Below are positions 41,726 to 59,074 of a stretch of DNA of 64,000 nt, one piece after another. A program made the position numbers and the translations under genes. The notes below the pieces were generated by a model. That model did not search any database, was not told the origin of the DNA, and saw only the letters and a list, made by a program, of their open reading frames with translations. How positions within the stretch are numbered: position 1 is the first letter of the stretch; each line of letters opens with the position of its first letter. The DNA comes from a virus, in the IMG/VR virus record IMGVR_UViG_3300032240_001333, positions 1 through 64,000 of that record. One strand, given 5' to 3'.

Positions 41726-41972
41726 GCTGTTTTGCCCTTTCGTTGATAGCGAATGCTAAATTATACGTCATAACATACAAATCTGTCAATGCGTCCATAC
41801 GTCCTTCAAAATAAAATTTATCTGCAATATTATCAGAATCACCTATTTCCGATAGTTTTGTTTCACATTCATACATCCAATTTTTTAATTCACCATGCAT
41901 GATGTTAGTACCTGTTTCTCCCAGGTCAATCAGCTTTTGAAGATGTGGGCTTAATTCATCAGACATTATCAT
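41718..41972 (-). CDS. Helical protein, unknown
   Basis: 84 aa. GGAGG before the ATG at 41972. YFEGRMDALTDLYVMTYNLAFAI near the C terminus resembles the WHYIQGQIFAIEHLLEVA region of the next gene, so the two may be paralogues. Confidence 0.5.
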   Translation of the reverse strand: MIMSDELSPHLQKLIDLGETGTNIMHGELKNWMYECETKLSEIGDSDNIADKFYFEGRMDALTDLYVMTYNLAFAINERAKQRG

Positions 41973-42165
41973 TTGCTACCTCCAATAAATGTTCTATGGC
42001 AAATATCTGTCCTTGTATATAATGCCAATCAATTGAATCATCTTTTAAAGATGTCTTTTCAATTAGTTCTTTATCTTGTTCAAGACTTATTAAATGAAGT
42101 TTCATATATTCGATTAAATTAGTCATGGATATCTTTCTGTCCAGTTTCTCTATTATGAATTGCAT
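41959..42165 (-). CDS. Helical protein, unknown
   Basis: 68 aa from the ATG at 42165, chosen because GGAG lies 6 nt upstream. Similar layout to 41718-41972. Confidence 0.5.
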   Translation of the reverse strand: MQFIIEKLDRKISMTNLIEYMKLHLISLEQDKELIEKTSLKDDSIDWHYIQGQIFAIEHLLEVANDNV

Positions 42166-42229
42166 ATACTCCGCAATCACAATTAAAGTATCCTGGTGTG
42201 TCGGTGCATTCCCATTTATGACTATGCAT
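42119..42229 (-). CDS. Small Cys protein
   Basis: 36 aa (HSHKWECTDTPGYFNCDCGV): WECxDxPGxxxCxCG zinc-type pattern. Its ATG overlaps the upstream gene's stop, and it overlaps the downstream frame by 47 nt. Confidence 0.45.
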   Translation of the reverse strand: MHSHKWECTDTPGYFNCDCGVYAIHNRETGQKDIHD

Positions 42230-42401
42230 GATCGAAATACCCCTCAGCCCATAGTCCTTGCAAGAAACTGTTTGCCATTTCTAAATCGCTTCTAAGTTCT
42301 GTCTTATCCATTAAATTGGACGGGGTCCTAAGATAAAAAAGTTTTGCGTCATGTATAGCATTAATCATTCTATTTAAATCATTTTCAGTATAACCTAGCA
42401 T
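42222..42401 (-). CDS. Helical protein, unknown
   Basis: 59 aa (LGYTENDLNRMINAIHDAKLF ... MANSFLQGLWAEGYF). 7-nt overlap with the upstream gene. Similar helical design to neighbours. Confidence 0.5.
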   Translation of the reverse strand: MLGYTENDLNRMINAIHDAKLFYLRTPSNLMDKTELRSDLEMANSFLQGLWAEGYFDHA

Positions 42402-42604
42402 AAGAAGTACTCATCCCCTTCTTTATATCCATAATATTCATTATAAGATTGTCTTACATTATCAGGAGCAAATTCCATAAATTTAAATTCAGCATATTCT
42501 TCGCCTTCATCTAAATTAGAATTATTCCAGTCTTCAAACAATTGCTCTTTTATATCATGCTGGATAGAATCTATTAGCATTTCATTCATATCATCTGTAA
42601 ACAT
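42395..42604 (-). CDS. Acidic small protein
   Basis: 69 aa, Asp/Glu/Tyr-rich (DEGEEYAEFKFMEFAP). Start-associated sequence upstream and TGTCRG promoter at 42628-42649. Confidence 0.55.
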   Translation of the reverse strand: MFTDDMNEMLIDSIQHDIKEQLFEDWNNSNLDEGEEYAEFKFMEFAPDNVRQSYNEYYGYKEGDEYFLC

Positions 42605-42627
42605 TTTTCCCCTTTCGTTATGGCTTA

Positions 42628-42649
42628 ATTATATATCAGACCACTGACA
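42628..42649 (-). promoter_or_regulatory. TGTCAG-N10-TATAAT promoter
   Basis: Minus-strand TGTCAG (42649-42644), 10 bp, TATAAT (42633-42628), driving 42604 leftward. A hairpin TGGTGTG-TTT-CACACCA (42666-42682) lies just upstream. Confidence 0.7.
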
Positions 42650-42761
42650 TTTGTAAATAGAATATTGGTGTGTTTCACACCACATTGTCCAAAGATTGAG
42701 ATTTCCAGGAAATTTACTTGACATCCGTAAAACAGATATGATACCCTCACCAGCTGCGGGA

Positions 42762-42894
42762 AATAAGAAACCCCCCAGCCGAGACTACTGGGGGATTAAG
42801 AGAGTGGCTGCTAGGACCTCAACGAAAGGAAAAGCCTGCTTTACTTAGCAACTAGATAAGTTGCACCACTCATATGAATAGGCACCCTGGGCCT
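42762..42894 (-). ncRNA. Candidate small RNA antisense to the start-associated sequence
   Basis: Gene-free interval after the stop of 42912-43316. Minus-strand extended promoter TGcTATAAT (42909-42901) predicts a start near 42894; a GC-rich hairpin and U-rich tract end it near 42762. The transcript contains UUUUCCUUUCGUU (42833-42821), perfectly complementary to AACGAAAGGAAAA upstream of many block genes. Upstream of this it can fold GCAACU/AGUUGC (42848-42864); GGCU/AGCC may present the antisense stretch in a loop. A 10-codon frame (42873-42841) also exists. Not annotated from any known family. Confidence 0.5.
42772..42794 (-). terminator. Terminator of the candidate small RNA
   Basis: CCCCCAG/CTGGGGG 7-bp stem with 9-nt loop; read leftward the stem is followed by GTTTCTTATTT. 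Confidence 0.7.
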
Positions 42895-42900
42895 AATCAA

Positions 42901-42909
42901 ATTATAGCA
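42901..42909 (-). promoter_or_regulatory. Extended -10 promoter of the candidate small RNA
   Basis: Minus-strand TGcTATAAT, directly after the stop codon of 42912-43316; no TGTCRG box. Confidence 0.55.
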
Positions 42910-42911
42910 TA

Positions 42912-43316
42912 TTAGACGAGCAGTCTCTCCAATGCATACTTCTCACAGAATGATGTGAGATCCATGGTAAAGATTGCTTCATTCTTCATACCTAAAACTT
43001 TATTCTCTAAGTTGCGATGATCATCTTGCTCATGCAATGAGAACGTTTGGTCCTTCCAATTAATAACAGCGATCTTGTGCTCATTGTCACCAATTGAATT
43101 TACCTGCAGACCCCAGCCTGTTTCCATGTTCCATTGGTCGCCGATCAAATGACTAATAGCAATACGTGTTGCATATGATTCGTCATTCCATCGAGGACGT
43201 GCTGCAATAACAGCATCCGCCAATTTACCTAACATGTTATATCCAGCCCAGTGTCCGTATAAGCAGATTGTATCTCCTGCTCCATCAACGAATACGTAGT
43301 TTGCTCTATCTCCCAT
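42912..43316 (-). CDS. Conserved phage protein (GDRANYVF family)
   Basis: 134 aa. MGDRANYVFVDG, LYGHWAGYNMLGKLADAV, WNDESYATRIAISHLI, ETGWGLQV: a widespread uncharacterised family in phages and actinobacteria. Start overlaps the upstream stop (TAATG). Confidence 0.7.
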   Translation of the reverse strand: MGDRANYVFVDGAGDTICLYGHWAGYNMLGKLADAVIAARPRWNDESYATRIAISHLIGDQWNMETGWGLQVNSIGDNEHKIAVINWKDQTFSLHEQDDHRNLENKVLGMKNEAIFTMDLTSFCEKYALERLLV

Positions 43317-43507
43317 TATATTTCCGCCTTTTCTAGTTGAGGTGTTTCTTCCGTTTTGTTTAATTCTATCATTTCATAGGCCCATTTGTCTAGAGCCTCT
43401 GAATTACTATTTCGGTGATGTCCGCAAAATGCCAGCTCACCTGATGTGCTACGGGCTAACCATTTAGCCTGAGCTGAGCATGAATCACATTTGATCCATT
43501 CGCTCAT
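43316..43507 (-). CDS. Small zinc-finger protein
   Basis: 63 aa. IKCDSCSAQAKWLA then LAFCGHHRN forms a CxxC...CxHH site. Acidic tail. Coupled to both neighbours. Confidence 0.6.
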   Translation of the reverse strand: MSEWIKCDSCSAQAKWLARSTSGELAFCGHHRNSNSEALDKWAYEMIELNKTEETPQLEKAEI

Positions 43508-43650
43508 ATCTTGTTTTCCTCTATCATATCTGATAGGCGGTCAAGGAGCCAAGAGTCGATATCCGCTAAGTCTATCTCTCTTAACTTCTCAATGATCTCC
43601 TCACGAGCAAATTTATACCCGTCATCAAAACCATCTTTATACTCAGACAT
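43504..43650 (-). CDS. Small helical acidic protein
   Basis: 48 aa (SEYKDGFDDGYKFAREEIIEKL), good GGGGAG site. ATGA-type overlap with the downstream gene. Unknown. Confidence 0.55.
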   Translation of the reverse strand: MSEYKDGFDDGYKFAREEIIEKLREIDLADIDSWLLDRLSDMIEENKI

Positions 43651-43876
43651 TTTCTCCCCTAACATATGCTAATTCATTCTCAGCATAATCTTTTTCATTT
43701 AATACTGTAAGATTGTGAGTTTGAATTAACTTGCTCACCTTCTCAATATTACCTGTTCCGATCTCGAATGTCAAGGACTTACGGTCATGAGAATCAGGAT
43801 CAAGCCCCATGACCTCCGCATCCCATGAGGCTCTATGGAAAGCAACATTACTATTTGCTTTTAATTTATAAAACAT
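43643..43876 (-). CDS. Small protein, unknown
   Basis: 77 aa from the ATG at 43876 (TAATG overlap). FYKLKANSNVAFHRASWDAEVMG, FEIGTGNIEKVSKL. Unknown. Confidence 0.55.
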   Translation of the reverse strand: MFYKLKANSNVAFHRASWDAEVMGLDPDSHDRKSLTFEIGTGNIEKVSKLIQTHNLTVLNEKDYAENELAYVRGENV

Positions 43877-44328
43877 TAGTTCCAATCCACATCTGTGTCT
43901 TCAATTGACCAATCATTTACTTCAACATCGCTTCCATATGATGTTAAAGTAAGTTCATCTCCAAGTTTGTAATGAGCGTCAAAGTTATCAACCTCATCAA
44001 GTGGAACCTGAACAGTTACTTCAAAATTAATAGTTCCAGTTACTGTAACTGTCTTTGATAATTCAAATCCAAACAGTTCTGCTATTTGTTGAAGCGCTTC
44101 TTCCTTTGTATAATTAGGATTATATAATTCAACTAGAAGTTCTTCTAACTCATTAACCTTTGATTTAAGGCTATGATAGTTATCATTAGCACGACGACCT
44201 TGATCTAAGGCCCATTCTAAATCAACTACCTTATCGGTAATATATTCAGGTGCTTCAGGTGCTGCGTAGGTTCCTGCAATCTTCTTGTAAGTCACAAGTA
44301 GATTAGGATTGTATGTTTCTATTGACAT
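43876..44328 (-). CDS. Acidic coiled-coil/beta protein, unknown
   Basis: 150 aa. N-terminal coil, C-terminal beta segment TVTVTGTINFEVTVQVPLDEVDNF similar to conserved actinophage domains, and an acidic end. Start-associated sequence immediately follows its start region on the upstream side (44334-44343). Confidence 0.55.
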   Translation of the reverse strand: MSIETYNPNLLVTYKKIAGTYAAPEAPEYITDKVVDLEWALDQGRRANDNYHSLKSKVNELEELLVELYNPNYTKEEALQQIAELFGFELSKTVTVTGTINFEVTVQVPLDEVDNFDAHYKLGDELTLTSYGSDVEVNDWSIEDTDVDWN

Positions 44329-45086
44329 TAGTTTCCTTTCGTTGTAGTAGTGGTTAAGTATACATTATGGGTCTGACATTCCGCCATAGCATCTTCATCC
44401 TGCCAAGAGCCTTGATTACATTCTGAGCAGAATTCTCCGCATCCGTCTTCACAATAATCTATTGTGTTAAAAGATTGGCAGGCATAACATCTGTTTTCAT
44501 ATTCTAAGTTTTCATTAACTTCACCACGAACAATCTCGTATTCACCACCCCAACCAGTCTCTTCTTCAAATTCAAGGGTTAATAGAGAGTTTGGAACAAG
44601 ATTGCTAAGTTTAGTTAATATAGTAACGGCAGGTGACCAAGCAGTATTATATTTATAGATAACCCAGTTGTCTTCACCCTCTGATGTATATTCAAGTAAT
44701 TCAGTATCAGGATATTCATCTTTGTCTGCTACGGCAACATCCCATTTTGTTCCCCAGTTAGTTGTATTCCAGTTATACCAATCTTTCTGAGTTTTAGCAT
44801 GCTCCATTTCTTTATCAAACCAATCAGGTTGATTTGTAGAAATTCCAAGTCGTGCAGGTTGTTGAACATATTCTTGCATTGTAATACCATCTTGTAATGG
44901 AGAATGTATATTCCAAAATGCAAAGACAGGATTAGAGTAAGTAGATTCAGTTACTTCCATTTTATTAGTTTCCATGTTCCAACTATCGTGCCATACCATA
45001 AATGGCTCGTTAAGTTTATCTTTGATAAAATCTATCTCAGACTTTGGTCCTTGGATTGTTAATGTGTTATACACCCAGTTAGGCAT
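44328..45086 (-). CDS. Api92-like (ferredoxin-fold DUF1281) protein with Cys-rich tail
   Basis: 252 aa from the ATG at 45086. PNWVYNTLTIQGPK start, FWNIHSPL, WGTKWDVAVAD, TAWSPAV, GGEYEIVRGE match the Api92-like fold. C-terminal RCYACQS ... YCEDGCGEFCSECNQG adds a zinc cluster unusual for the family. Function unknown. Confidence 0.7.
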   Translation of the reverse strand: MPNWVYNTLTIQGPKSEIDFIKDKLNEPFMVWHDSWNMETNKMEVTESTYSNPVFAFWNIHSPLQDGITMQEYVQQPARLGISTNQPDWFDKEMEHAKTQKDWYNWNTTNWGTKWDVAVADKDEYPDTELLEYTSEGEDNWVIYKYNTAWSPAVTILTKLSNLVPNSLLTLEFEEETGWGGEYEIVRGEVNENLEYENRCYACQSFNTIDYCEDGCGEFCSECNQGSWQDEDAMAECQTHNVYLTTTTTKGN

Positions 45087-45111
45087 ATTATTCCTTTCGT
45101 TGATTAGCGCA

Positions 45112-45133
45112 ATTGTATCAGAGTCGACTGACA
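45112..45133 (-). promoter_or_regulatory. TGTCAG-N10-TACAAT promoter
   Basis: Drives 45086 leftward; start-associated sequence at 45092-45101 (minus). Confidence 0.7.
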
Positions 45134-45210
45134 TTATCAAGGATTTCCAGGAATTTTATTGATGTTCTCATAAAAGCGAAAAAAGGCCCTTAGCTATTGG
45201 GGGCAGCTTG

Positions 45211-45284
45211 CGATCCCAACGGGACTTGAACCCGTAGCCTTTACCGTGACAGGGTAACGATCTAACCAATTGATCTATGGGACC
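45211..45284 (-). tRNA. tRNA-Asp (GUC)
   Basis: 74-nt cloverleaf on the minus strand; acceptor GGTCCCA/TGGGATC (one wobble), anticodon arm TTACC-CTGTCAC-GGTAA, T arm with GGTTCAAGTCC. No CCA encoded. Probably processed from the 46323 transcript. Confidence 0.88.
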
Positions 45285-45290
45285 TAGATG

Positions 45291-45310
45291 TGGGGCCCTT
45301 TCGGGCCCCA
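45291..45310 (-). terminator. GC-rich hairpin between DUF932 gene and tRNA-Asp
   Basis: 8-bp TGGGGCCC/GGGCCCCA, read leftward with a GAAA loop. No U tract in the leftward direction, so it may mark RNA processing rather than termination. Confidence 0.55.
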
Positions 45311-45315
45311 TTTAT

Positions 45316-46323
45316 TTATACTAGTTGCAGATTATTTTGTACAACTTTTAACAAGCGATTTTTTTCTGCGTTAATTACAGGATTGAAACCACTTGCAGAT
45401 GCTAAAAGAGTTTCAGCATTTCCACGGCGATGCCAATCTAAACGCTCAGTTAAAGCGTTAAATGCTCCCCATGCATTACCAGCGATCATGTGATTAAATT
45501 CGCCAGTGTAGATATCATTAATGAGATCAACTTTCGTTTCCCATTTTTTAATTGCGCCCTTAGTATCTTTTGTAGGCTTAGGGTACGCAGCCAAAATAAT
45601 ATCGTTAAATTGTTGAGCGGTGATTTCTTTTTGAATCATCTGCTTAGCCATGATATCGAATTTATCCATGTATGAATTCGCAAGACCTAAAGCCTCACGA
45701 GCCACACGCACACGACCTTCAGCAGATTGTGTATGACGGATTTTGAAAGATTGCTTAACGCCATCTTTCTTTTTGATATTGCCCATCGCAAGATTTAGCG
45801 TGTTAGCGCATACAACACGAACGGGTGTTATAGATGCTTGAATAGCAATTGAGCCATCATGTGATGTATTAATAAGCAGATAAGTTTTAACAACATCTGC
45901 CACGCCACTAGGATCAAGAACGGTTTCACGCTCTAATGCTAATGAGCCGAATACAACACGACCGCCACGAATTGAGCCAGCAGTCTCCCAACGTCCACCG
46001 CCATCAAGAATATTATCGCCGAATGCGAATAATTCTTCATTTTGCAATGGTACATAACGCTCACCGACAATTCCTAAAACATCGGTTTGTGTTTTGTCCG
46101 TAGGATTAGTACGCACAACATATTGATAGTTTTTATCGCTTGTTAATGTAGATGGAATTTCTAATTCCTCTAAGCGAACATTCCAACCATTAAGGTTAGC
46201 GGTTTCTAGCATTTCGCTAGTTGTTTTTTCTTCTGTGAACACGGTACCTAAACCATGCCACGCAGGTTCACGAAATGATGCAAAAGAAGTTTTGCCATTT
46301 TGTGATTCTAGTTCATGAGCCAT
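45316..46323 (-). CDS. DUF932 (phage/plasmid-like TIGR03299) protein
   Basis: 335 aa. AHELESQNGKTSFASFREPAWHGLG, YVVRTNPT, GIVGERYVPLQNEELFAF, RVVCANTLNLA: classic DUF932 signature. Common in large phages and plasmids; role unresolved. Largest gene of the minus block, with promoter 46352-46373. Confidence 0.88.
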   Translation of the reverse strand: MAHELESQNGKTSFASFREPAWHGLGTVFTEEKTTSEMLETANLNGWNVRLEELEIPSTLTSDKNYQYVVRTNPTDKTQTDVLGIVGERYVPLQNEELFAFGDNILDGGGRWETAGSIRGGRVVFGSLALERETVLDPSGVADVVKTYLLINTSHDGSIAIQASITPVRVVCANTLNLAMGNIKKKDGVKQSFKIRHTQSAEGRVRVAREALGLANSYMDKFDIMAKQMIQKEITAQQFNDIILAAYPKPTKDTKGAIKKWETKVDLINDIYTGEFNHMIAGNAWGAFNALTERLDWHRRGNAETLLASASGFNPVINAEKNRLLKVVQNNLQLV

Positions 46324-46351
46324 TTATTTTCCTTTCGTTTAATGTAGCGTT

Positions 46352-46373
46352 ATTCTAGCATACATGACTGACA
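46352..46373 (-). promoter_or_regulatory. TGTCAG-N10-TAGAAT promoter
   Basis: Upstream of DUF932 gene; preceded further right by CGACACGCC (46391-46399) and AGGGATTTT. Confidence 0.7.
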
Positions 46374-46433
46374 TTTGGCAATATCCTATCCGACACGCCA
46401 GGGATTTTAAAAGCTTGACTTAAAGCAGAAAAT

Positions 46434-46454
46434 GCCCCCACAGTATCTGGGGGC
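46434..46454 (-). terminator. Bidirectional-type terminator
   Basis: GCCCCC/GGGGGC 6-bp stem, 9-nt loop; ATTTT leftward and TTTT rightward. Ends the 46679 transcript. Confidence 0.65.
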
Positions 46455-46460
46455 TTTTAA

Positions 46461-46679
46461 TTAAGAAATGACTAACGATTTAAAATCGGTTGGAAAAAAC
46501 ATTGCCAGAATCTTTTTCTTTTCAACATTGTCATATACATATGCTTTGACATTGCCCTGGAACTTATTTAGATTTTTTCTAACAACTTTATTTAGCGCTT
46601 CACGATTTAATATATCATTAAAATGTAAAGTTAAATCATGAGCTTTGTTAGCATCATAGATTTCTACACGATACCGCAT
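46461..46679 (-). CDS. Small protein, unknown
   Basis: 72 aa (YRVEIYDANKAHDLTLHFND; AYVYDNVEKKKILAMFF). Variant start-associated sequence CAAAAGGAAAC; -10 TAAAAT (46712-46707) without the TGTCRG box. Confidence 0.55.
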   Translation of the reverse strand: MRYRVEIYDANKAHDLTLHFNDILNREALNKVVRKNLNKFQGNVKAYVYDNVEKKKILAMFFPTDFKSLVIS

Positions 46680-46717
46680 TTGTTTCCTTTTGTAGTAGGG
46701 AGAACTATTTTAACATA

Positions 46718-46742
46718 GGGGGCTAGATTTTGTCTAGCCCCC
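46718..46742 (-). terminator. 10-bp hairpin
   Basis: GGGGGCTAGA/TCTAGCCCCC with 5-nt loop, between 46752-47174 and the -10 for 46679. No U tract leftward. Confidence 0.6.
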
Positions 46743-46751
46743 ATTTGTTTA

Positions 46752-47174
46752 TTATAGATATTGAGCGATAGCGTTGTAAGTAGAAGTTGAAACTACTTCC
46801 TCATCTGTCATTTTCAGAATACGGATAGCGTTTTCAATTTCATCTTTTGTAGCCTTGTAAGTATGAACATGGAAGGTTTCAAAATCACGCTCAGGTTGCT
46901 TAGGAAAATCCTTCTCGTCAATTTTTAAGTCAAAATCAACATTGAGTTGGTTATTCCATGAACGATAATTTGTGCGGACATTTTCCGCTTTTGAGATATT
47001 ATCAAGAGCAAACTTAACAATATCTTTATTCCACTTAGCCAAAGTCTTTTGATACTTTGCCTCGTTCTCGTCTTGTTTCTTATAGTTAGTTTCAATTTCT
47101 GCTAACTTAGTTTCTAAAGCCTTGATAACTTTAGGTGTAGCGATTTTAACGCTAATTGCTTTTTGTCTTGACAT
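46752..47174 (-). CDS. Helical protein, unknown
   Basis: 140 aa, Lys/Glu-rich helices (KALETKLAEIETNYKKQDENE), then FETFHVHTYKATKDEIENAIRIL. Single-gene unit with TGTCGG promoter and start-associated sequence. Confidence 0.6.
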   Translation of the reverse strand: MSRQKAISVKIATPKVIKALETKLAEIETNYKKQDENEAKYQKTLAKWNKDIVKFALDNISKAENVRTNYRSWNNQLNVDFDLKIDEKDFPKQPERDFETFHVHTYKATKDEIENAIRILKMTDEEVVSTSTYNAIAQYL

Positions 47175-47200
47175 GTATTTCCTTTCGTTAGGTTGGGTTT

Positions 47201-47222
47201 ATTATAGCGGACACCACCGACA
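47201..47222 (-). promoter_or_regulatory. TGTCGG-N10-TATAAT promoter
   Basis: Drives 47174 leftward. Confidence 0.7.
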
Positions 47223-47241
47223 AGCGGTGTCCGCATATTAC

Positions 47242-47385
47242 TTAGTTTAGAACTACTGAAGTCCAGCGTTCTTTGCCATTTACATCTAGCAAGATACGAG
47301 CCACTCCGCTTGGGTGATTATCAACGGCTTTGATAATTCCAGTAATACCACTTGTAGTGGTTGTGTATAGTTGTCCGATTTCCAT
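47242..47385 (-). CDS. Small beta-barrel-like protein
   Basis: 47 aa from the ATG at 47385, 7 nt after CGAAAGGAAA. EIGQLYTTTTSGITGIIKAV ... RWTSVVL: SH3-like small protein. Unknown. Confidence 0.6.
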   Translation of the reverse strand: MEIGQLYTTTTSGITGIIKAVDNHPSGVARILLDVNGKERWTSVVLN

Positions 47386-47413
47386 TTTTGTTTCCTTTCG
47401 TTTATGGGTTGTT

Positions 47414-47435
47414 ATTATAGCACCTGCCACCGACA
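47414..47435 (-). promoter_or_regulatory. TGTCGG-N10-TATAAT promoter
   Basis: Abuts the stop codon of 47437-47706; drives 47385 leftward. Confidence 0.7.
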
Positions 47436-47436
47436 A

Positions 47437-47706
47437 TTAGTAATCGGTTTCAGGTAGCCACGCTTCTAGGTGGTGAGCCTCGATAATTGCTAAGGCAGGA
47501 GCCTTATCTCTGCCCCTATATGACACGCCTTGAGGCATATCTATCAGGCGATCATAGTCCTCATCATAGTACGCATCTATGGCATCAATACATGGTTGTA
47601 CCATTGATAGCGGAACGGGTGGATAGTGATTACCTTGTAAGTGATAACCAATAGCCATTTCTAAGTCTAAGTTTTCTGCTAAGTCTATTGCTGTATTTAA
47701 TCCCAT
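47437..47706 (-). CDS. Conserved small protein, unknown
   Basis: 89 aa, acidic. GYHLQGNHYPPVPLSMVQPC, AIDAYYDEDYDRL, HHLEAWLPETDY. Directly downstream of 47707-47982 without spacing, so cotranscribed. Confidence 0.6.
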   Translation of the reverse strand: MGLNTAIDLAENLDLEMAIGYHLQGNHYPPVPLSMVQPCIDAIDAYYDEDYDRLIDMPQGVSYRGRDKAPALAIIEAHHLEAWLPETDY

Positions 47707-47982
47707 TTATTCATTCTCCTCTAATATAGTTTCGGATAAGTTTTCTATTTCGTTAATACTATCCGTCATCTCTTTCATCTCGGTTTCGGATAGTAATACT
47801 TTAGTAGTTAGGTCTGCTGTTTTACTAGCAAGACTAGCAGAATAAAGATAAATTAACTTTGCGAAAGTTTTATCATCTATTTCATTTCTGCGTTCCATTA
47901 AGTCCCCTGCTAAGGCTGTAATATCATCATTAAATACTGCTTCCTTAGTTGCTTCTGATATTGCTATGGCTGTTGCTAACAT
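47707..47982 (-). CDS. Helical protein, unknown
   Basis: 91 aa, acidic helices (ALAGDLMERRNEIDDKTF, KLIYLYSASLASKTADLT). Start-associated sequence and TGTCGG promoter upstream. Confidence 0.55.
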   Translation of the reverse strand: MLATAIAISEATKEAVFNDDITALAGDLMERRNEIDDKTFAKLIYLYSASLASKTADLTTKVLLSETEMKEMTDSINEIENLSETILEENE

Positions 47983-48008
47983 ATTTTCCTTTCGTTGGTG
48001 ATGGGCTG

Positions 48009-48030
48009 ATTATACACCAGCCCACCGACA
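48009..48030 (-). promoter_or_regulatory. TGTCGG-N10-TATAAT promoter
   Basis: Drives 47982 leftward. Confidence 0.7.
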
Positions 48031-48034
48031 TTTA

Positions 48035-48295
48035 CTAAGCCAGTACTATAAGAGCCTGCGTAGCAAACTCATTAGCAATATCTAACTTTGCTTGGATTTC
48101 ATCTCTAGTCATATCGGCAGGGTTACCGACAAACTCAGTAATTGCGCCTTGATTGTAAGTTGCAAACCTACCAGCAGGCAAGTTTTCTACTTTTGGATAA
48201 AACTCACCTTTTGGATCTAATAAAGAGTTAAACTTAACTCCATTAACTTCGAATGGATAAACCACCCAATTAGTTGTGTCTAGCATTGTTTTCAT
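48035..48295 (-). CDS. Small protein, unknown
   Basis: 86 aa (WVVYPFEVNGVKFNSLLDPKG, LPAGRFATYNQGAITEFVG). Compact alpha/beta. Single-gene unit. Confidence 0.55.
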   Translation of the reverse strand: MKTMLDTTNWVVYPFEVNGVKFNSLLDPKGEFYPKVENLPAGRFATYNQGAITEFVGNPADMTRDEIQAKLDIANEFATQALIVLA

Positions 48296-48322
48296 TTTAT
48301 TTCCTTTCGTTTAAGTAGTGGA

Positions 48323-48344
48323 ATTGTAGCAGATCTAACTGACA
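48323..48344 (-). promoter_or_regulatory. TGTCAG-N10-TACAAT promoter
   Basis: Drives 48295; preceded by CGACACGCC (48353-48361) and TTTTCAGGG. Confidence 0.7.
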
Positions 48345-48407
48345 TTTTGTTGCGACACGCCGTCAGCTCGTAAAAATTTTCAGGGTGTTTTATATCACAT
48401 TCTTAAC

Positions 48408-48461
48408 GACACGCCCGACCCCGCAGTATTTGCGGGCAAAGCCCCCTTTTGTCAAGGGGGA
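48408..48461. repeat. GACACGCC box and two tandem hairpins
   Basis: GACACGCC (48408-48415), then CCCGCA-GTATT-TGCGGG and CCCCCTT-TTGTC-AAGGGGG, between 48474-48566 and the promoter of 48295. Likely terminator or processing region for the 48775 transcript. Confidence 0.55.
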
Positions 48462-48473
48462 CACGCTGGTTAT

Positions 48474-48566
48474 TTAATAACACTCTCCACATAATGGATA
48501 GTAATATTCGCCATCATCAGTAATAAACTGAGTGGTATCTTGATTGCAAGATGAACATTTATTCAT
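48474..48566 (-). CDS. Zinc-ribbon miniprotein
   Basis: 30 aa: KCSSC ... LCGEC. TAATG overlap with 48566-48775. A one-zinc knuckle. Confidence 0.55.
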   Translation of the reverse strand: MNKCSSCNQDTTQFITDDGEYYYPLCGECY

Positions 48567-48775
48567 TATAAATCCCCCATTTCTGCGTCAGCCATGCGTG
48601 TATTCATATGATCTGCATCAATATCACGCCAGCCAAAGTAAGCCATTTCTGACATATCATAACATTCAGGGCAGACATAATCGTCGCCAAAGATTTCATA
48701 TTCCTCAATAGTTTCGAAAGTCTGAGTAGCACCACAGATTTCGTACATTAAGCAAGCAACTGTTAGATTTTCCAT
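48566..48775 (-). CDS. Small Cys-containing acidic protein
   Basis: 69 aa with ACLMYEICG and VCPECYDMSE, then an acidic tail. Promoter and start-associated sequence upstream. Confidence 0.6.
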   Translation of the reverse strand: MENLTVACLMYEICGATQTFETIEEYEIFGDDYVCPECYDMSEMAYFGWRDIDADHMNTRMADAEMGDL

Positions 48776-48803
48776 TTTAGTTCACCTTTCGTTAAGTAAT
48801 GGA

Positions 48804-48825
48804 ATACTAACACATCACACTGACA
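48804..48825 (-). promoter_or_regulatory. TGTCAG-N10-TAGTAT promoter
   Basis: Drives 48775; CGACACGCC (48835-48843) and TTTTCAGGG just upstream. Confidence 0.65.
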
Positions 48826-48887
48826 TTTCCAAATCGACACGCCGAAATTTTCAGGGCATTTTTATCATGTGTCTTAAATCACAAAAC

Positions 48888-48913
48888 GCCCCCACAGCTT
48901 TTGCGGGCTTTTT
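48888..48913 (-). terminator. Hairpin with flanking T/A tracts
   Basis: GCCC/GGGC stem extended by an internal pair, loop CACAGCTTTT-like; GTTTTG leftward and TTTTT rightward. Ends the 49051 transcript. Confidence 0.55.
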
Positions 48914-49051
48914 CTAATCTGTCAAGTCGACACGCCGTTTATGTTTTAATTTTCTTGTGTATTTTTTTTTATTGCGAACAGGTTGGGCCGCATTGCTGCG
49001 GCGTAATTCCTGAATGCGTTTTACTTTATTTAGAAGAATATTTTGGCACAT
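48914..49051 (-). CDS. Small basic disordered protein (RRSNAA type)
   Basis: 45 aa from the ATG at 49051. RIQELRRSNAAQPVRNKKKY and KLKHKRRV: a Lys/Arg-rich tail type seen in many actinophage small proteins. Overlaps the upstream gene by 26 nt. Confidence 0.5.
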   Translation of the reverse strand: MCQNILLNKVKRIQELRRSNAAQPVRNKKKYTRKLKHKRRVDLTD

Positions 49052-49217
49052 GATAACCGCTTGCTTCATGAAATTTAACAACATCAAAACGCTCATTATC
49101 TTTTGCAAACATTTCTGCAAAATCGTGAACAGTTTTAGAAAAAACAGCGGGATGAATTTTATCGCTGATATATTTTAAAATTTCAGCGGTTGCGATATAG
49201 TCTTTACGGGTCATCAT
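49026..49217 (-). CDS. Small conserved protein, unknown
   Basis: 63 aa. TRKDYIATAEILKYI ... AEMFAKDNERFDVVKFHEASG, a familiar actinophage pattern. Start overlaps the upstream stop (ATGATG). Confidence 0.6.
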   Translation of the reverse strand: MMTRKDYIATAEILKYISDKIHPAVFSKTVHDFAEMFAKDNERFDVVKFHEASGYHVPKYSSK

Positions 49218-49414
49218 TTTGCGGACACCAATCCAATCAAGTTAAAATTTTTAGTATACATTTTACCATTAGGCATAGTTAAATTATATCTTGCGTTTTC
49301 TACGGCAAAGCCATGATCTTTACATCTAGCAAAAGCCTCAAACGCTTGAAGAGCATCAGAAAATTCATGGGTAAATTCTAATTTCCCATCATAGTAAGTA
49401 AATAATTTATACAT
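49214..49414 (-). CDS. Small protein, unknown
   Basis: 66 aa from the ATG at 49414 (TAATG with the upstream gene). YKLFTYYDGKLEFTHEFSDAL, CKDHGFAVENARYNLTM. Unknown. Confidence 0.55.
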   Translation of the reverse strand: MYKLFTYYDGKLEFTHEFSDALQAFEAFARCKDHGFAVENARYNLTMPNGKMYTKNFNLIGLVSAK

Positions 49415-49545
49415 TAGATCACCCACTCATCTAAAACACAATCACAACTTTCAACATCATAATTTTTTTCATCGCCCCAAAATACAAATCCTGCGCCACC
49501 GCATTCTTCACATTCAATTGCGATTATTTCTTTTATATTTCCCAT
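49414..49545 (-). CDS. Small zinc-binding protein
   Basis: 43 aa: IECEECGGAGFVFWG and ESCDCVLDEW. DnaJ-like CxxCxGxG fragment. Start-associated sequence upstream. Confidence 0.6.
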   Translation of the reverse strand: MGNIKEIIAIECEECGGAGFVFWGDEKNYDVESCDCVLDEWVI

Positions 49546-49575
49546 TTAGTTTTCCTTTCGTAGTTTGTTAATAGA

Positions 49576-49597
49576 ATTATAGCGGATACCGCTGACA
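49576..49597 (-). promoter_or_regulatory. TGTCAG-N10-TATAAT promoter
   Basis: Drives 49545-48914 unit. Confidence 0.7.
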
Positions 49598-49598
49598 C

Positions 49599-49814
49599 CT
49601 AGTAGGTGTCAGGGTAAACATCTTCGGGTTTTCCAATCCCGATTACACGATATTTATTACGGATCATGCCCGTATCAATTTCGATTAAATAAGCATCAAT
49701 ATATCTGCCAAAAAAAGCAGAATGTTTTTCAGCAGAAACAATTTTTCCGCTGATAGTATCGGATGAATAAGTCCTACCGACTAGCAAGTCGGTGTGAGAG
49801 TAGATATTAGCCAT
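49599..49814 (-). CDS. Small beta protein, unknown
   Basis: 71 aa (YSHTDLLVGRTYSSDTISGK; YIDAYLIEIDTGMIRNKYRV). Single-gene unit with promoter 49843-49864. Confidence 0.55.
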   Translation of the reverse strand: MANIYSHTDLLVGRTYSSDTISGKIVSAEKHSAFFGRYIDAYLIEIDTGMIRNKYRVIGIGKPEDVYPDTY

Positions 49815-49842
49815 AGTTAGTTTTCCTTTCGTTTATGGTGTA

Positions 49843-49864
49843 ATTTTAACATAACCCACTGACA
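49843..49864 (-). promoter_or_regulatory. TGTCAG-N10-TAAAAT promoter
   Basis: Box lies at the end of gene 49866-50015; drives 49814. Confidence 0.7.
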
Positions 49865-49865
49865 A

Positions 49866-50015
49866 TCAGTGGGTTGGCGTTTCCGCCATGATTAGTTTTA
49901 ATAAACCAATTCGTTGCGATTTGGTTAAATTTAATTTCGCAACAGTTTCGGATTTTATTCCGCCATTATTATATTCGAACAAAAGTTCGTTATAGATTTC
50001 GCTAAATTCTTTCAT
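49866..50015 (-). CDS. Small helical protein
   Basis: 49 aa (KEFSEIYNELLFEYNNGGIK; LNLTKSQRIGLLKLIMAE), HTH-like. Preceded by the start-associated sequence and promoter 50043-50064. Confidence 0.6.
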   Translation of the reverse strand: MKEFSEIYNELLFEYNNGGIKSETVAKLNLTKSQRIGLLKLIMAETPTH

Positions 50016-50042
50016 TTAGTTTTCCTTTCGTTTAATAGTTTT

Positions 50043-50064
50043 ATTCTAACACCTACCACTGACA
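50043..50064 (-). promoter_or_regulatory. TGTCAG-N10-TAGAAT promoter
   Basis: Drives 50015; right next to the DnaA-box cluster. Confidence 0.7.
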
Positions 50065-50100
50065 TTTTGCCTATTACTGACCAGTATTTGAGACAGTATT

Positions 50101-50200
50101 CGTGTGATCATAATCACACGAGTTATCCACGACACGCCCGAAGTTTTCCACAGATTTTCAGGGGTTTTCCACATCTGTGCATAAACCCTGTGGATAACGC
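50101..50200. other. Candidate origin: DnaA-box-like cluster
   Basis: Palindrome CGTGTGAT-CATA-ATCACACG (50101-50120) followed by TTATCCACG (50123-50131), TTTTCCACA (50144-50152), TTTTCCACA (50165-50173) and an exact TTATCCACA on the minus strand (50197-50189). Lies in a gene-free gap of 234 bp inside the minus block. No classic AT-rich 13-mers were identified. Confidence 0.5.
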
Positions 50201-50249
50201 CCACAAAAAGCTGCGGGCCAATGTCGCCATTGTCAAGGCGACACGCCGT

Positions 50250-50348
50250 CTATTTCTTGTGAGTTTCCTCACATACGCATTTGGTATATGCGCCAGCGTT
50301 TAACCTGCCACATTTAGGGCAGGTATAGAAACCAGCAGGATTAGTCAT
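50250..50348 (-). CDS. Zinc-ribbon miniprotein
   Basis: 32 aa: TCPKCGRLNAG and KCVCEE. Overlaps upstream gene end by 8 nt. Confidence 0.55.
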   Translation of the reverse strand: MTNPAGFYTCPKCGRLNAGAYTKCVCEETHKK

Positions 50349-50454
50349 TTAACCCACCGCTCTTTACATCGTAGTAGATAGCGTAGACTAGGGCAGATAC
50401 TACACCTAGCAACGCTAATTGGATGGCGGTGGTGATTAGTCTATTTAGTGTCAT
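50341..50454 (-). CDS. Membrane miniprotein
   Basis: 37 aa with one TM (IQLALLGVVSALVYAIYY). TAATG overlap with upstream gene. Confidence 0.5.
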   Translation of the reverse strand: MTLNRLITTAIQLALLGVVSALVYAIYYDVKSGGLND

Positions 50455-50585
50455 TACTTACGACCTCTCCATATTTTAATTCCAGCAATTACTACAACAG
50501 ATACGATAATTAGTTTCCAATCTAGTGCGACATAGAACCAATCGCTATCTACGCAGAAACCATATGAGTTTAATTCAATAGTCAT
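50454..50585 (-). CDS. Membrane miniprotein
   Basis: 43 aa; TM near C terminus (LIIVSVVVIAGIKIW) with basic RGRK end. Coupled to 50341-50454. Confidence 0.5.
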   Translation of the reverse strand: MTIELNSYGFCVDSDWFYVALDWKLIIVSVVVIAGIKIWRGRK

Positions 50586-50588
50586 TTA

Positions 50589-50765
50589 TTACTCCGTCCA
50601 GTCTAAGGTTAATTCTTGCTCTGCTAATTCATCAAGGCTAATTATATCGGTATCAAAATCGCTAACGATATCTTCATCGCCCTCTTGCTTGGCGATAGCC
50701 TCTCTCTCGTCCCAATGGCGGTATGCGTCTGCGATATCCGCTTGGATAGTGTCCCATTTAGTCAT
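50589..50765 (-). CDS. Acidic helical protein
   Basis: 58 aa, Asp/Glu-rich (TKWDTIQADIADAYRHWDER ... LDELAEQELTLDW). Alternative ATG at 50768. Confidence 0.55.
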   Translation of the reverse strand: MTKWDTIQADIADAYRHWDEREAIAKQEGDEDIVSDFDTDIISLDELAEQELTLDWTE

Positions 50766-50769
50766 CATA

Positions 50770-50880
50770 TTAGAAACCCCAGCAATCTGAGCAGATAACT
50801 ACATCGCTCTCATCGTAGAATATAGAGGACATCTCTACATCGCACACCTTACAATTTAAGGTGATTAGTGTGTCGTTCAT
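50770..50880 (-). CDS. Zinc-ribbon miniprotein
   Basis: 36 aa: LNCKVCDVEM and VICSDCWGF. First gene of the 50880-50250 operon. Confidence 0.55.
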   Translation of the reverse strand: MNDTLITLNCKVCDVEMSSIFYDESDVVICSDCWGF

Positions 50881-50913
50881 TTTCTTACCTTCTTTCGTTT
50901 TTGTTATGGTGAA

Positions 50914-50935
50914 ACCTTATCATACCCCACCGACA
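50914..50935 (-). promoter_or_regulatory. TGTCGG-N10-TAAGGT (weak -10) promoter
   Basis: Same box and spacing, poorer -10. Drives 50880. Confidence 0.5.
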
Positions 50936-50969
50936 AAGCGCAAGCCTTGCCGATGTGATGTTGCTCACA

Positions 50970-51194
50970 TTAGTAGGCACCATAGGTGCCATCCTTTAGT
51001 GATTGGATAGTAGTCAATACATGGTCAATAGCCATCATGACTATCTCTTTATCAGAGCGGTCTTGATAAGCCCAATGATCCTTATAGTAGACATATGCTT
51101 GCTCATATGTCCAGCAATAAGTATCGTGATAATACTTAAGCGTAGGAGATAGCGTTTCATACGCCTCATTTATTTCTTTTATCATAGTTATCAT
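50970..51194 (-). CDS. Small helical protein, unknown
   Basis: 74 aa (AYETLSPTLKYYHDTYCWTYEQAYVYY broken by charged turns; KEIVMMAIDHVLTTIQSL). AACGAAAGGATAT before the ATG at 51194. First gene of the minus block; untranslated leader about 100 nt. Confidence 0.55.
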   Translation of the reverse strand: MITMIKEINEAYETLSPTLKYYHDTYCWTYEQAYVYYKDHWAYQDRSDKEIVMMAIDHVLTTIQSLKDGTYGAY

Positions 51195-51227
51195 ATTTAT
51201 ATCCTTTCGTTGATATATATTGAGCGG

Positions 51228-58270: not shown

Positions 58271-59074
58271 TTACCAACCATTTTTTTCCATCATAATTTT
58301 TGTTTTTTCTTCTATTATATCTGCAAATTGTGGATTAATTCTTAGCGGAGAATTCCAATCATTTAATTGTTGTTCGCTAGGATTTTCATATTTTCCAATT
58401 TGTTCTTCCCATTCAGGAGTTTTATAATTATAAAATGTTCCTGGGTTATCCTCTGCTAATAAAGCAAAGCATGAAAATGCAAATCTTGTACCACTTTTTG
58501 TTTTTCTAGTTCCATGATCATAAGGGATACATGCTCCATGTAATATAATATCTCCTGGTTCTGGCTGAACTTCAAGACAAGGCTGAGCAAGTTTTTTCTC
58601 ATCAATTCTCATATCGCCAGTTTTTTCAGTACCATCTGGATTAATATTTGGATAATATAAAGCACCGCCAGTAAAGTCACCCAAATAGGCAATCATTCCA
58701 TATTCAAGTTCACAACATGTAGACCATTGATCTATTTCAAGTAATAATTCACATCTTCCTTTTCCAGGACTGTCAGCATGAACAAACATACCTTCATCAT
58801 GTGGTTGAGAAACCATTAAACTTCTTACTGGATGAATAACAATTTCTGGATGTATTAATTCTGACATAAATTTCCATAAAGGGAATGTGCTAGAAAAACC
58901 TGGAGTCATTTTGTCCTTATACCAGTCCCTAACACTCCAGTCATTATCTGCCCCACCTCTTTCAAAGGTTGCAAGATCTTTATTAATCGATTCAATTATT
59001 TCTTTAGGAATAATATTTTTAAATATATAAATTCTATTTGCTATTTTTTTACATCTAGGATCATCGTAAAACAT
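58271..59074 (-). CDS. 2-oxoglutarate/Fe(II)-dependent oxygenase, copy 8
   Basis: 267 aa. FVHADSPGKG (HxD), GMIAYLGDFTGGALYYP, GDIILHGACIPYDHGTRKTKSGTRF (distal His and Arg). AAAGGAGGAAA ribosome-binding site; extended -10 TGgTATAAT (minus, -10 at 59110-59105). Neighbour of the collagen-like fibre operon, making the fibre a candidate substrate. Confidence 0.85.
   Translation of the reverse strand: MFYDDPRCKKIANRIYIFKNIIPKEIIESINKDLATFERGGADNDWSVRDWYKDKMTPGFSSTFPLWKFMSELIHPEIVIHPVRSLMVSQPHDEGMFVHADSPGKGRCELLLEIDQWSTCCELEYGMIAYLGDFTGGALYYPNINPDGTEKTGDMRIDEKKLAQPCLEVQPEPGDIILHGACIPYDHGTRKTKSGTRFAFSCFALLAEDNPGTFYNYKTPEWEEQIGKYENPSEQQLNDWNSPLRINPQFADIIEEKTKIMMEKNGW

Follow-up and report, generated by a model that had tools for sequence, protein, structure and literature searches.

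Antisense RNAs directed against ribosome-binding sites are, as a kind, already known. In staphylococci, small RNAs such as RNAIII carry C-rich loops (UCCC) that pair with the Shine-Dalgarno sequences of several mRNAs. Cluster K mycobacteriophages possess start-associated sequences (SAS) before many of their non-structural genes, which include the Shine-Dalgarno sequence and are conserved beyond it (Pope et al., 2011, PMC3203893). In four of these phages a single copy lies in reverse orientation away from gene starts, and the passages devoted to SAS leave open whether an RNA or a protein binds them (PMC3203893). SAS were still called ill-defined in 2024, in a paper (PMC11373665) whose main text, like that of a second cluster K paper, does not contain the term "small RNA".

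The locus compared with these systems here lies in the window, i.e., the whole stretch of 64,000 nucleotides of viral DNA that was analysed, which is part of a virus record of 81,264 bases. The window encodes a DNA polymerase of PHROG 405, a DUF7455 protein and a DUF932 protein. Its proteins have relatives in Streptomyces, Mycobacterium and other actinobacteriophages, and judging from these sequences the host of this virus group is probably an actinobacterium. Among records of named phages, no DNA similarity was found to the gene block, to the RNA region, or to the RNAs of two of the loop groups treated below (B and D). Elsewhere in the window, a 644-aa ORF at 61594-63528 matches ribonucleotide reductase only in pieces (residues 17-41 and 141-216), and it is possibly an interrupted, split or diverged form of this enzyme.

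A shared leader and an RNA gene in one gene block

With at most two mismatches, AACGAAAGGAAA has 23 matches in the window versus a mean of 8.66 in 100 shuffles, none of which reaches 23. Fifteen of the 23 precede minus-strand starts, from 41733 to 51211. CGAAAGG is kept in 14 of these (13 are exactly AACGAAAG and one is TACGAAAG), and the match at 46683-46694 is TACAAAAGGAAA. A sixteenth leader, the variant AACGAAAGAAGG, lies at 50899-50888. The preliminary description had counted about 15 minus-strand starts with a shared leader, in agreement with the 14 carrying CGAAAGG and the two variants found here. By a crude gene caller, CGAAAG stands before 12 of 34 minus-strand genes, all at 41.7-51.2 kb, versus 1 of 86 plus-strand genes, and in this sole plus-strand case the motif sits upstream of an ordinary AAGGAG. 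Several genes of the block are without the leader and have an ordinary Shine-Dalgarno sequence instead, e.g., those with starts at 41972, 43316, 43507 and 47706. The leaders, read from the sequence, are the following.

41733-41744, minus strand: leader AACGAAAGGGCA, start 41725
42608-42619, minus strand: leader AACGAAAGGGGA, start 42604
44332-44343, minus strand: leader AACGAAAGGAAA, start 44328
45090-45101, minus strand: leader AACGAAAGGAAT, start 45086
46328-46339, minus strand: leader of the DUF932 gene, start 46323
46683-46694, minus strand: deviating leader TACAAAAGGAAA, start 46679, with the weakest predicted duplex of the 15 (-12.3 kcal/mol)
47178-47189, minus strand: leader, start 47174
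47391-47402, minus strand: leader, start 47385
47985-47996, minus strand: leader, start 47982
48300-48311, minus strand: leader, start 48295
48782-48793, minus strand: leader AACGAAAGGTGA, start 48775
49551-49562, minus strand: leader TACGAAAGGAAA, start 49545
49822-49833, minus strand: leader, start 49814
50021-50032, minus strand: leader, start 50015
50888-50899, minus strand: leader variant AACGAAAGAAGG, start 50880
51200-51211, minus strand: leader AACGAAAGGATA, start 51194

Within this block, an RNA gene made up of an extended -10 element, a folded core and a terminator occupies 42769-42911 on the minus strand, in a gap bounded by ORFs at 42395-42604 and 42912-43316.

42912-43316, minus strand: 134-aa ORF directly upstream of the RNA gene, the neighbour used as anchor for relatives
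42901-42911, minus strand: extended -10 promoter element TATGCTATAAT of the RNA gene (sequence)
42799-42874, minus strand: structured core, a three-way junction of P1, P2, J2/3 UAAGUAAA and P3 (covariance model R1 and covariation in relatives)
42821-42828, minus strand: P3 loop CUUUCGUU, antisense to the leader AACGAAAG (sequence; CTTTCGTT in relatives)
42769-42797, minus strand: intrinsic terminator-like hairpin with a U-rich tail (sequence)

It had been claimed from the sequence that this gene-free gap holds a single reversed copy of the leader, together with an extended -10 and a hairpin plus U-rich tract on the minus strand. All three were recovered: 42821-42832 is the only plus-strand match without mismatch, TATGCTATAAT stands at 42911-42901, and a terminator-like stem lies at 42797-42769. 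With the leader that is commonest in this phage, the loop matches over about 12-13 nt (UUUUCCUUUCGUU). For the 133-nt RNA of the window, the computed fold has an energy of -49.1 kcal/mol (z -2.75).

Two observations concern the surroundings of the gene. Directly past the terminator, at 42703-42755, a stretch like GAGGGTANCATATCTGTTTTACGGATGTCAAGTANATTTCC is strongly conserved, and relatives have it at the corresponding position; motifs of the TTTACG type are met again in Streptomyces phages. By its sequence, this stretch is possibly an operator or a plus-strand promoter. On the other side of the gene, the 134-aa protein has a homologue in MindFlayer (L267, 5001-5695), encoded directly upstream of a phage tmRNA gene.

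Conservation and fold of the RNA in relatives

Relatives were collected from viral contigs by means of the 134-aa neighbour protein, a search that does not select for the RNA. Of the 65 loci that it gave, two (L062 and L066) were set aside, as the contig end cut the match or the match spanned only 15 residues. CTTTCGTT was present downstream of the 134-aa gene in 63 of the 63 loci examined (48 distinct sequences), with a chance expectation of 0.007 per 330 nt. Loop length and flanks vary among these neighbour-found loci, and CUUUCGUU is kept. The same three-way junction scaffold was found in 62 of the 63. In the exception, L060, the scaffold is gone, and there is a 9-bp hairpin with UUUCCUUUCGUU in its loop and, after it, another hairpin that resembles a terminator. 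The contig carries 11 leaders with CGAAAG. At another locus (L065), the RNA is present though the neighbour protein is only 41% identical.

A pattern scan that selects for the loop brought the set to at least 100 parsed RNAs with 88 distinct cores. For the alignment A1, 52 of 100 parsed RNAs were chosen by hand for diversity, and the covariance model R1 was built from these 52 sequences. The core of the window, itself one of the 52, scores 73 bits against R1 (E 5.5e-15). From the 80 loci listed by a second loop-selecting scan, 69 were given to R1, and 48 of them matched at E < 1e-9. Three matches at E 0.081 (L452, L458 and L494) have one common sequence that reads as coding DNA, and were judged to be chance. 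The exact pattern of the window's own loop had 0 matches in viral contigs. In a pattern scan of bacterial genome contigs, the matches listed come from unrelated bacteria and were, unscored, judged from their titles to be chance.

The fold is supported by covariation. Positions 1-6 of P2 are paired in 85-88 of the 88 cores, and at position 3 G-C, A-U and C-G are exchanged. RNAalifold, applied to the alignment of 52 RNAs, predicts P1 and P2 unaided, with changes on both sides. In the P1/P2/P3 structure 92.8% of cells are paired, and 162 cells have changes on both sides. Its covariation score is 0.384; shuffled alignments give 0.131, with none of 500 attaining the observed value, and sliding the structure along the alignment gives 0.082 at most. 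A pseudoknot of J2/3 UAAGUAAA with the loop UUUACUUA (group B, e.g., L040) was also considered and rejected; it is perfect in many RNAs and broken where J2/3 is UAAAUAAA. Many of the conserved pairs are G-U or U-G on the minus strand, e.g., in 35 of 52 sequences at columns 14-43.

These pairs bear on the strand that is transcribed. The preliminary description had offered as an alternative a plus-strand transcript, starting from a TTGACA at about 42718 and carrying a decoy ribosome-binding site. A plus-strand promoter match does exist at 42713-42742, but it is weak (9 of 12 positions), and both the terminator and the strong -10 lie on the minus strand. Moreover, a plus-strand RNA is disfavoured because the conserved G-U and U-G pairs would be A-C mismatches there. 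The decoy transcript is thus hardly credible. Because the stems covary and the G-U pairs fit the minus strand, the RNA is, as judged by comparison of sequences, real as a structure and on that strand. The minus-strand RNA gene with an antisense stretch that had been proposed has turned out to be a conserved structured RNA with a loop core invariant in the loci examined.

As an independent transcription unit, which antisense small RNAs form as a class, the RNA has the sequence features of a promoter and a terminator. A TATAAT-like box (loose pattern) was found within 70 nt upstream in 88 of the 98 parsed RNAs with enough flank and is absent from 10, and a terminator-like site follows 78 of the 98 and not the other 20. 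The class also has a conserved secondary structure with an exposed pairing stretch; the structure is seen by covariation, and the exposure is only partial in computed folds. In the folds of seven RNAs, accessibility of the 8-mer is uneven, part of it lying in small hairpins, with unpaired probabilities from 0.05 to 1.0.

Against Rfam release 15, the window gave only tRNAs at the gathering threshold. With E up to 5, the best matches to the RNA region were NsiR1 at 16.2 bits (39 needed) and anti-hemB at 13 (49.5 needed), and five further RNA loci gave three sub-threshold hits only, all in L407. We assume that the c4 antisense RNA may be among the families of this release.

Pairing of the loop with the leader and their change in evolution

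The loop CUUUCGUU is the exact complement of the leader AACGAAAG, as had been claimed, and the same 8 nt are conserved on the leader side. When leaders of RNA-bearing contigs are anchored only on AAAG, the preceding bases are A in.88, A in.87, C in.77 and G in.87, with low conservation further upstream; the conserved AACG before AAAG thus gives the same 8 nt as the loop core. In related contigs, the C of CGAAAG lies 9-18 nt past the -10 box in 314 of 358 cases. Because it follows promoters so closely, we infer that the leader is an element near the 5′ end of the mRNA.

The reading that we prefer is as follows. The gap would be the gene of a small phage RNA, about 130 nt long and equipped with a promoter and a terminator, as its mostly conserved sequence features indicate. 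This RNA would fold as a three-way junction, for which the covariation speaks, and its third hairpin would display the loop CUUUCGUU. The loop would pair in trans with AACGAAAG, close to where the promoter-proximal mRNAs of the block presumably begin. AACGAAAG overlaps the Shine-Dalgarno sequence, so that a paired leader would be closed to the ribosome. The block as a whole would thereby be turned down in one step, probably to end or limit the expression of its small accessory genes. Genes inside operons of the block that have ordinary Shine-Dalgarno sequences would be affected only indirectly. To the whole chain, in which a small RNA pairs with 5′ leaders, blocks ribosome binding and represses the block, we assign a probability of about 0.58; expression, pairing in vivo, and the sign and timing of regulation are parts of it that we infer. 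Repression of initiation would be the most likely outcome, because the Shine-Dalgarno sequence, close to where the mRNA begins, would be taken up in the pairing.

The same pairing could also have a positive effect, by protecting the 5′ end from decay or by helping translation. The place of the leader, near the presumed 5′ end, would suit this, and there is a precedent in FasX, a small RNA that stabilises ska by pairing with the 5′ end. However, GAAAG(G), which is the Shine-Dalgarno sequence itself, is part of the stretch that pairs, and this should hinder initiation. A positive effect is therefore regarded as unlikely.

Repression of the block through its leaders also has to be weighed against a more general activity. 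The 16S tail presumably contains CCUUUC, and so do the loops of groups A and B; the loop may thus be a mimic of the 16S tail or a general decoy for host and phage mRNAs or a ribosomal factor, the block leaders being only some of its targets. The predicted duplexes bear on this idea in two ways. With a 23-nt loop segment, the 15 block leaders have a median of -19.2 kcal/mol versus -9.2 for 68 other starts, which were picked by hand from the window's ORF list, so that the block leaders bind better as a set. Nevertheless, some genes with ordinary Shine-Dalgarno sequences score well too: five of the 68 reach -14 kcal/mol or lower, and the best, at -22.1, equals the best block leader. Against mimicry, the constant part of the loop is CUUUCGUU and not CCUUUCU. 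Depending on the loop group, the base before CUUUCG is A, T or C. By contrast, GUU is constant, and nothing in the 16S tail matches it. Mimicry or general decoy activity is accordingly judged very unlikely.

The preliminary description had proposed to look in relatives for a conserved promoter, a conserved terminator and compensatory changes. The first two are mostly conserved, as given above, but no double compensatory change in the 8-nt core of loop and leader was seen when groups A-D were compared, because neither side varies there. Outside the core the flanking base is not the same in all loop groups. In group C (loop ACUUUCG) every leader is mismatched to the loop at position +6, and group D leaders tolerate A at +6 (27%), where the loop of group D has U. 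In a 4 by 4 table of groups A-D, compensation beyond the core found no support, because own-group pairing was not best on the diagonal. The pattern named as contrary evidence, a leader that changes while the antisense stretch stays, was not seen among the contigs examined.

A different kind of change was found in a sister clade, whose DUF932 proteins are 80-87% identical to that of the window. The clade is represented by 73 contigs, drawn from 80 relatives that were the best of 465. In searches of whole records, 0 of the 73 gave an R1 match below E 0.1 (best 0.12); many of these records are fragments, and four are 89.8-116.6 kb long. A cmsearch on pieces of the 73 contigs gave no R1 match up to E 1 and no match of the reciprocal model R2 described below. 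As positive controls, seven of seven records were found by R1 at E 7.4e-12 or lower, five of the seven being sequences from which R1 was built. The whole-record search missed the diverged RNA of phage Paradiddles, which a direct search found, so this RNA-less clade may yet have a strongly diverged RNA.

The leaders of this clade differ as well. CGAAAG follows 358 of 523 promoters in RNA-bearing contigs versus 42 of 262 promoters of the same type in the RNA-less clade (the counts exclude L209, a regex match judged to be chance, and L001, a copy of the window). Where GAAAG follows these promoters, RNA-bearing contigs have C immediately before it in 354 of 410 leaders, and the RNA-less clade has A in 134 of 189 and C in 40. 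Among the 135 distinct sequences of a DUF932 tree, 56 make up the RNA-less clade (support 0.833), which is sister to five RNA-bearing sequences including that of the window. This joint clade (support 1.0) is in turn sister to the other RNA-bearing phages, and the RNA-less clade is thus nested among them. From the nested position and the leader counts together, it follows that losing the RNA went along with a change of the leader. We take the actinobacterial 16S tail to be CCUCCUUUCU, and the tail of the actual host may differ. The leader A can pair with the last base of this tail, and C cannot. The co-change is the best evidence that it is the RNA for which the leader retains its C. It amounts to one transition, seen on the tree of one gene, and a change of host could be its cause.

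Related scaffolds and comparison with known systems

A more distant phage, DSL-LC01 (L266, L392), has 23 CGAAAGG leader-like sites, 16 of which are CGACGAAAGG. They stand mostly before gene starts, just after TATAAT-type promoters. CCTTTCG was not found on the leader strand of this phage. As DSL-LC01 has the leader and no RNA was found in it, the leader can exist without the RNA. Across the phages compared, the core is the same on both sides where both occur, the leader differs in one RNA-less clade, and DSL-LC01 has a leader with no RNA found.

A related scaffold occurs in Streptomyces phages. In Paradiddles (Stanwilliamsviridae), a three-way-junction RNA lies at 751-822 on the minus strand (L269, 9593-9664). 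This RNA is near the left genome end. Similar DNA is found in 83 Streptomyces records, at two places per record listed, which are likely to be terminal repeats. The RNA is not annotated as such in the records viewed; the annotations of Jay2Jay, Warpy, Daubenski and a few others assign the matching DNA to a hypothetical protein. The scaffold has covariation of its own, with 100% of cells paired in 10 sequences. R1 finds the Paradiddles RNA at E 0.0041 and six of nine further loci of this type at E 0.011-0.072; by themselves these scores are weak, since the three chance matches in coding DNA score almost as well (E 0.081). Conversely, the reciprocal model R2 recovers three of 13 sources of the family treated here, at E 0.0006, 0.0006 and 0.023; the window is not one of them. 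With E up to 1, no such RNA was found in the RNA-less contigs or in DSL-LC01. The reciprocal hits, the place and the fold, taken together, indicate that the two RNAs are related: the Streptomyces-phage RNA is a similar three-way junction that lies near the DUF932 relative, in the gene block at the left end, and it has a TTGACA promoter of its own.

The Streptomyces-phage RNA differs in its P3 loop, which is AAGGUCGG or AUGGUCGG. No leader complementary to this loop (GGUCGG) was found, and the leaders of these phages (AUCGAAAGGG and similar) do not match it. P1 is followed by a conserved tail, ACCUUUCAAUU; this could base-pair with GAAAGG, leaving the C of the leader mismatched. Such a loop on a related scaffold, and a scaffold (including J2/3) conserved beyond the needs of displaying a loop, would be expected if the RNA acted through a phage or host protein, in replication or in packaging, and the complementarity were a by-product, e.g., of a common protein ligand. 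On the other hand, the 8-nt complementarity is exact, lies at the same positions and changes together with the leader, and the L060 hairpin keeps the loop without the scaffold. An origin of the complementarity as a by-product is thus considered quite unlikely, and pairing with the leaders is retained as the preferred reading.

In cluster K, the resemblance extends in part to the reverse SAS copy. In Adephagia and Angelica, it lies in a long, strong hairpin whose loop CCUCCUAUCC is antisense to GGAUAGGAG. The intergenic region concerned has several hairpins (L411, 33600-33800, i.e., Adephagia 58599-58799, and L413-L422), and sequence like it is found in 164 records. Twelve cluster K phages, picked by hand and including 10 from the 164 records, were aligned; the antisense loop is kept in five, four have the CCCTTCCC type and three have neither. 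Forward SAS copies (at most two mismatches) number 15-20 in each of 11 cluster K records searched. Since the antisense loop is kept in only five of 12 and forward copies occur throughout, the parallel is real in part and not general. The present family, the Streptomyces scaffold and some cluster K hairpins may be cases of one class of anti-leader RNAs of actinobacteriophages, in which a scaffold with an exchangeable loop reads the phage's own start-associated leader for one-to-many control of a block. This generalisation from sequences is tentative and rather doubtful.

If the preferred reading is true, one phage RNA rules a regulon written by the phage itself through a common 8-nt leader, as a post-transcriptional counterpart of a repressor with many operators. 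Through the candidate loop, one RNA could switch the block off or on. The pair of leader and RNA also offers a direct test of what start-associated sequences do, a question raised in the SAS passages of Pope et al. (PMC3203893). A further gain is an RNA family with covariation, for which the tests made gave no Rfam 15 match; it occurs in uncultured phages, and Streptomyces phages have a related scaffold.

In the open-licence literature, no report of one constant-loop RNA against a leader common to a phage gene block was recognised. What was not found described, and would be new, is such an RNA directed against a block-wide phage leader, on a scaffold that had no Rfam 15 match in the tests made. 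The staphylococcal RNAs with UCCC loops share with it the use of one RNA with a pyrimidine loop against the ribosome-binding sites of several mRNAs; they are bacterial and have generic Shine-Dalgarno targets, whereas the present target is a common, nearly identical phage leader. The c4 antisense RNA of phages P1 and P7, the nearest parallel among phage antisense RNAs, is likewise a phage RNA with loops complementary to a ribosome-binding region, but in the description given there it has one target, the ant mRNA, and controls immunity, by which it is set apart from the present RNA (PMC12197685). The SAS of cluster K, which come closest to the present leader, share the arrangement: many copies in one orientation stand just before gene starts in one part of the genome, and they are conserved beyond the Shine-Dalgarno sequence. 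The sequence itself is different, being GGGATAGGAGCCC in the SAS and AACGAAAGG in the leader of the present phage.
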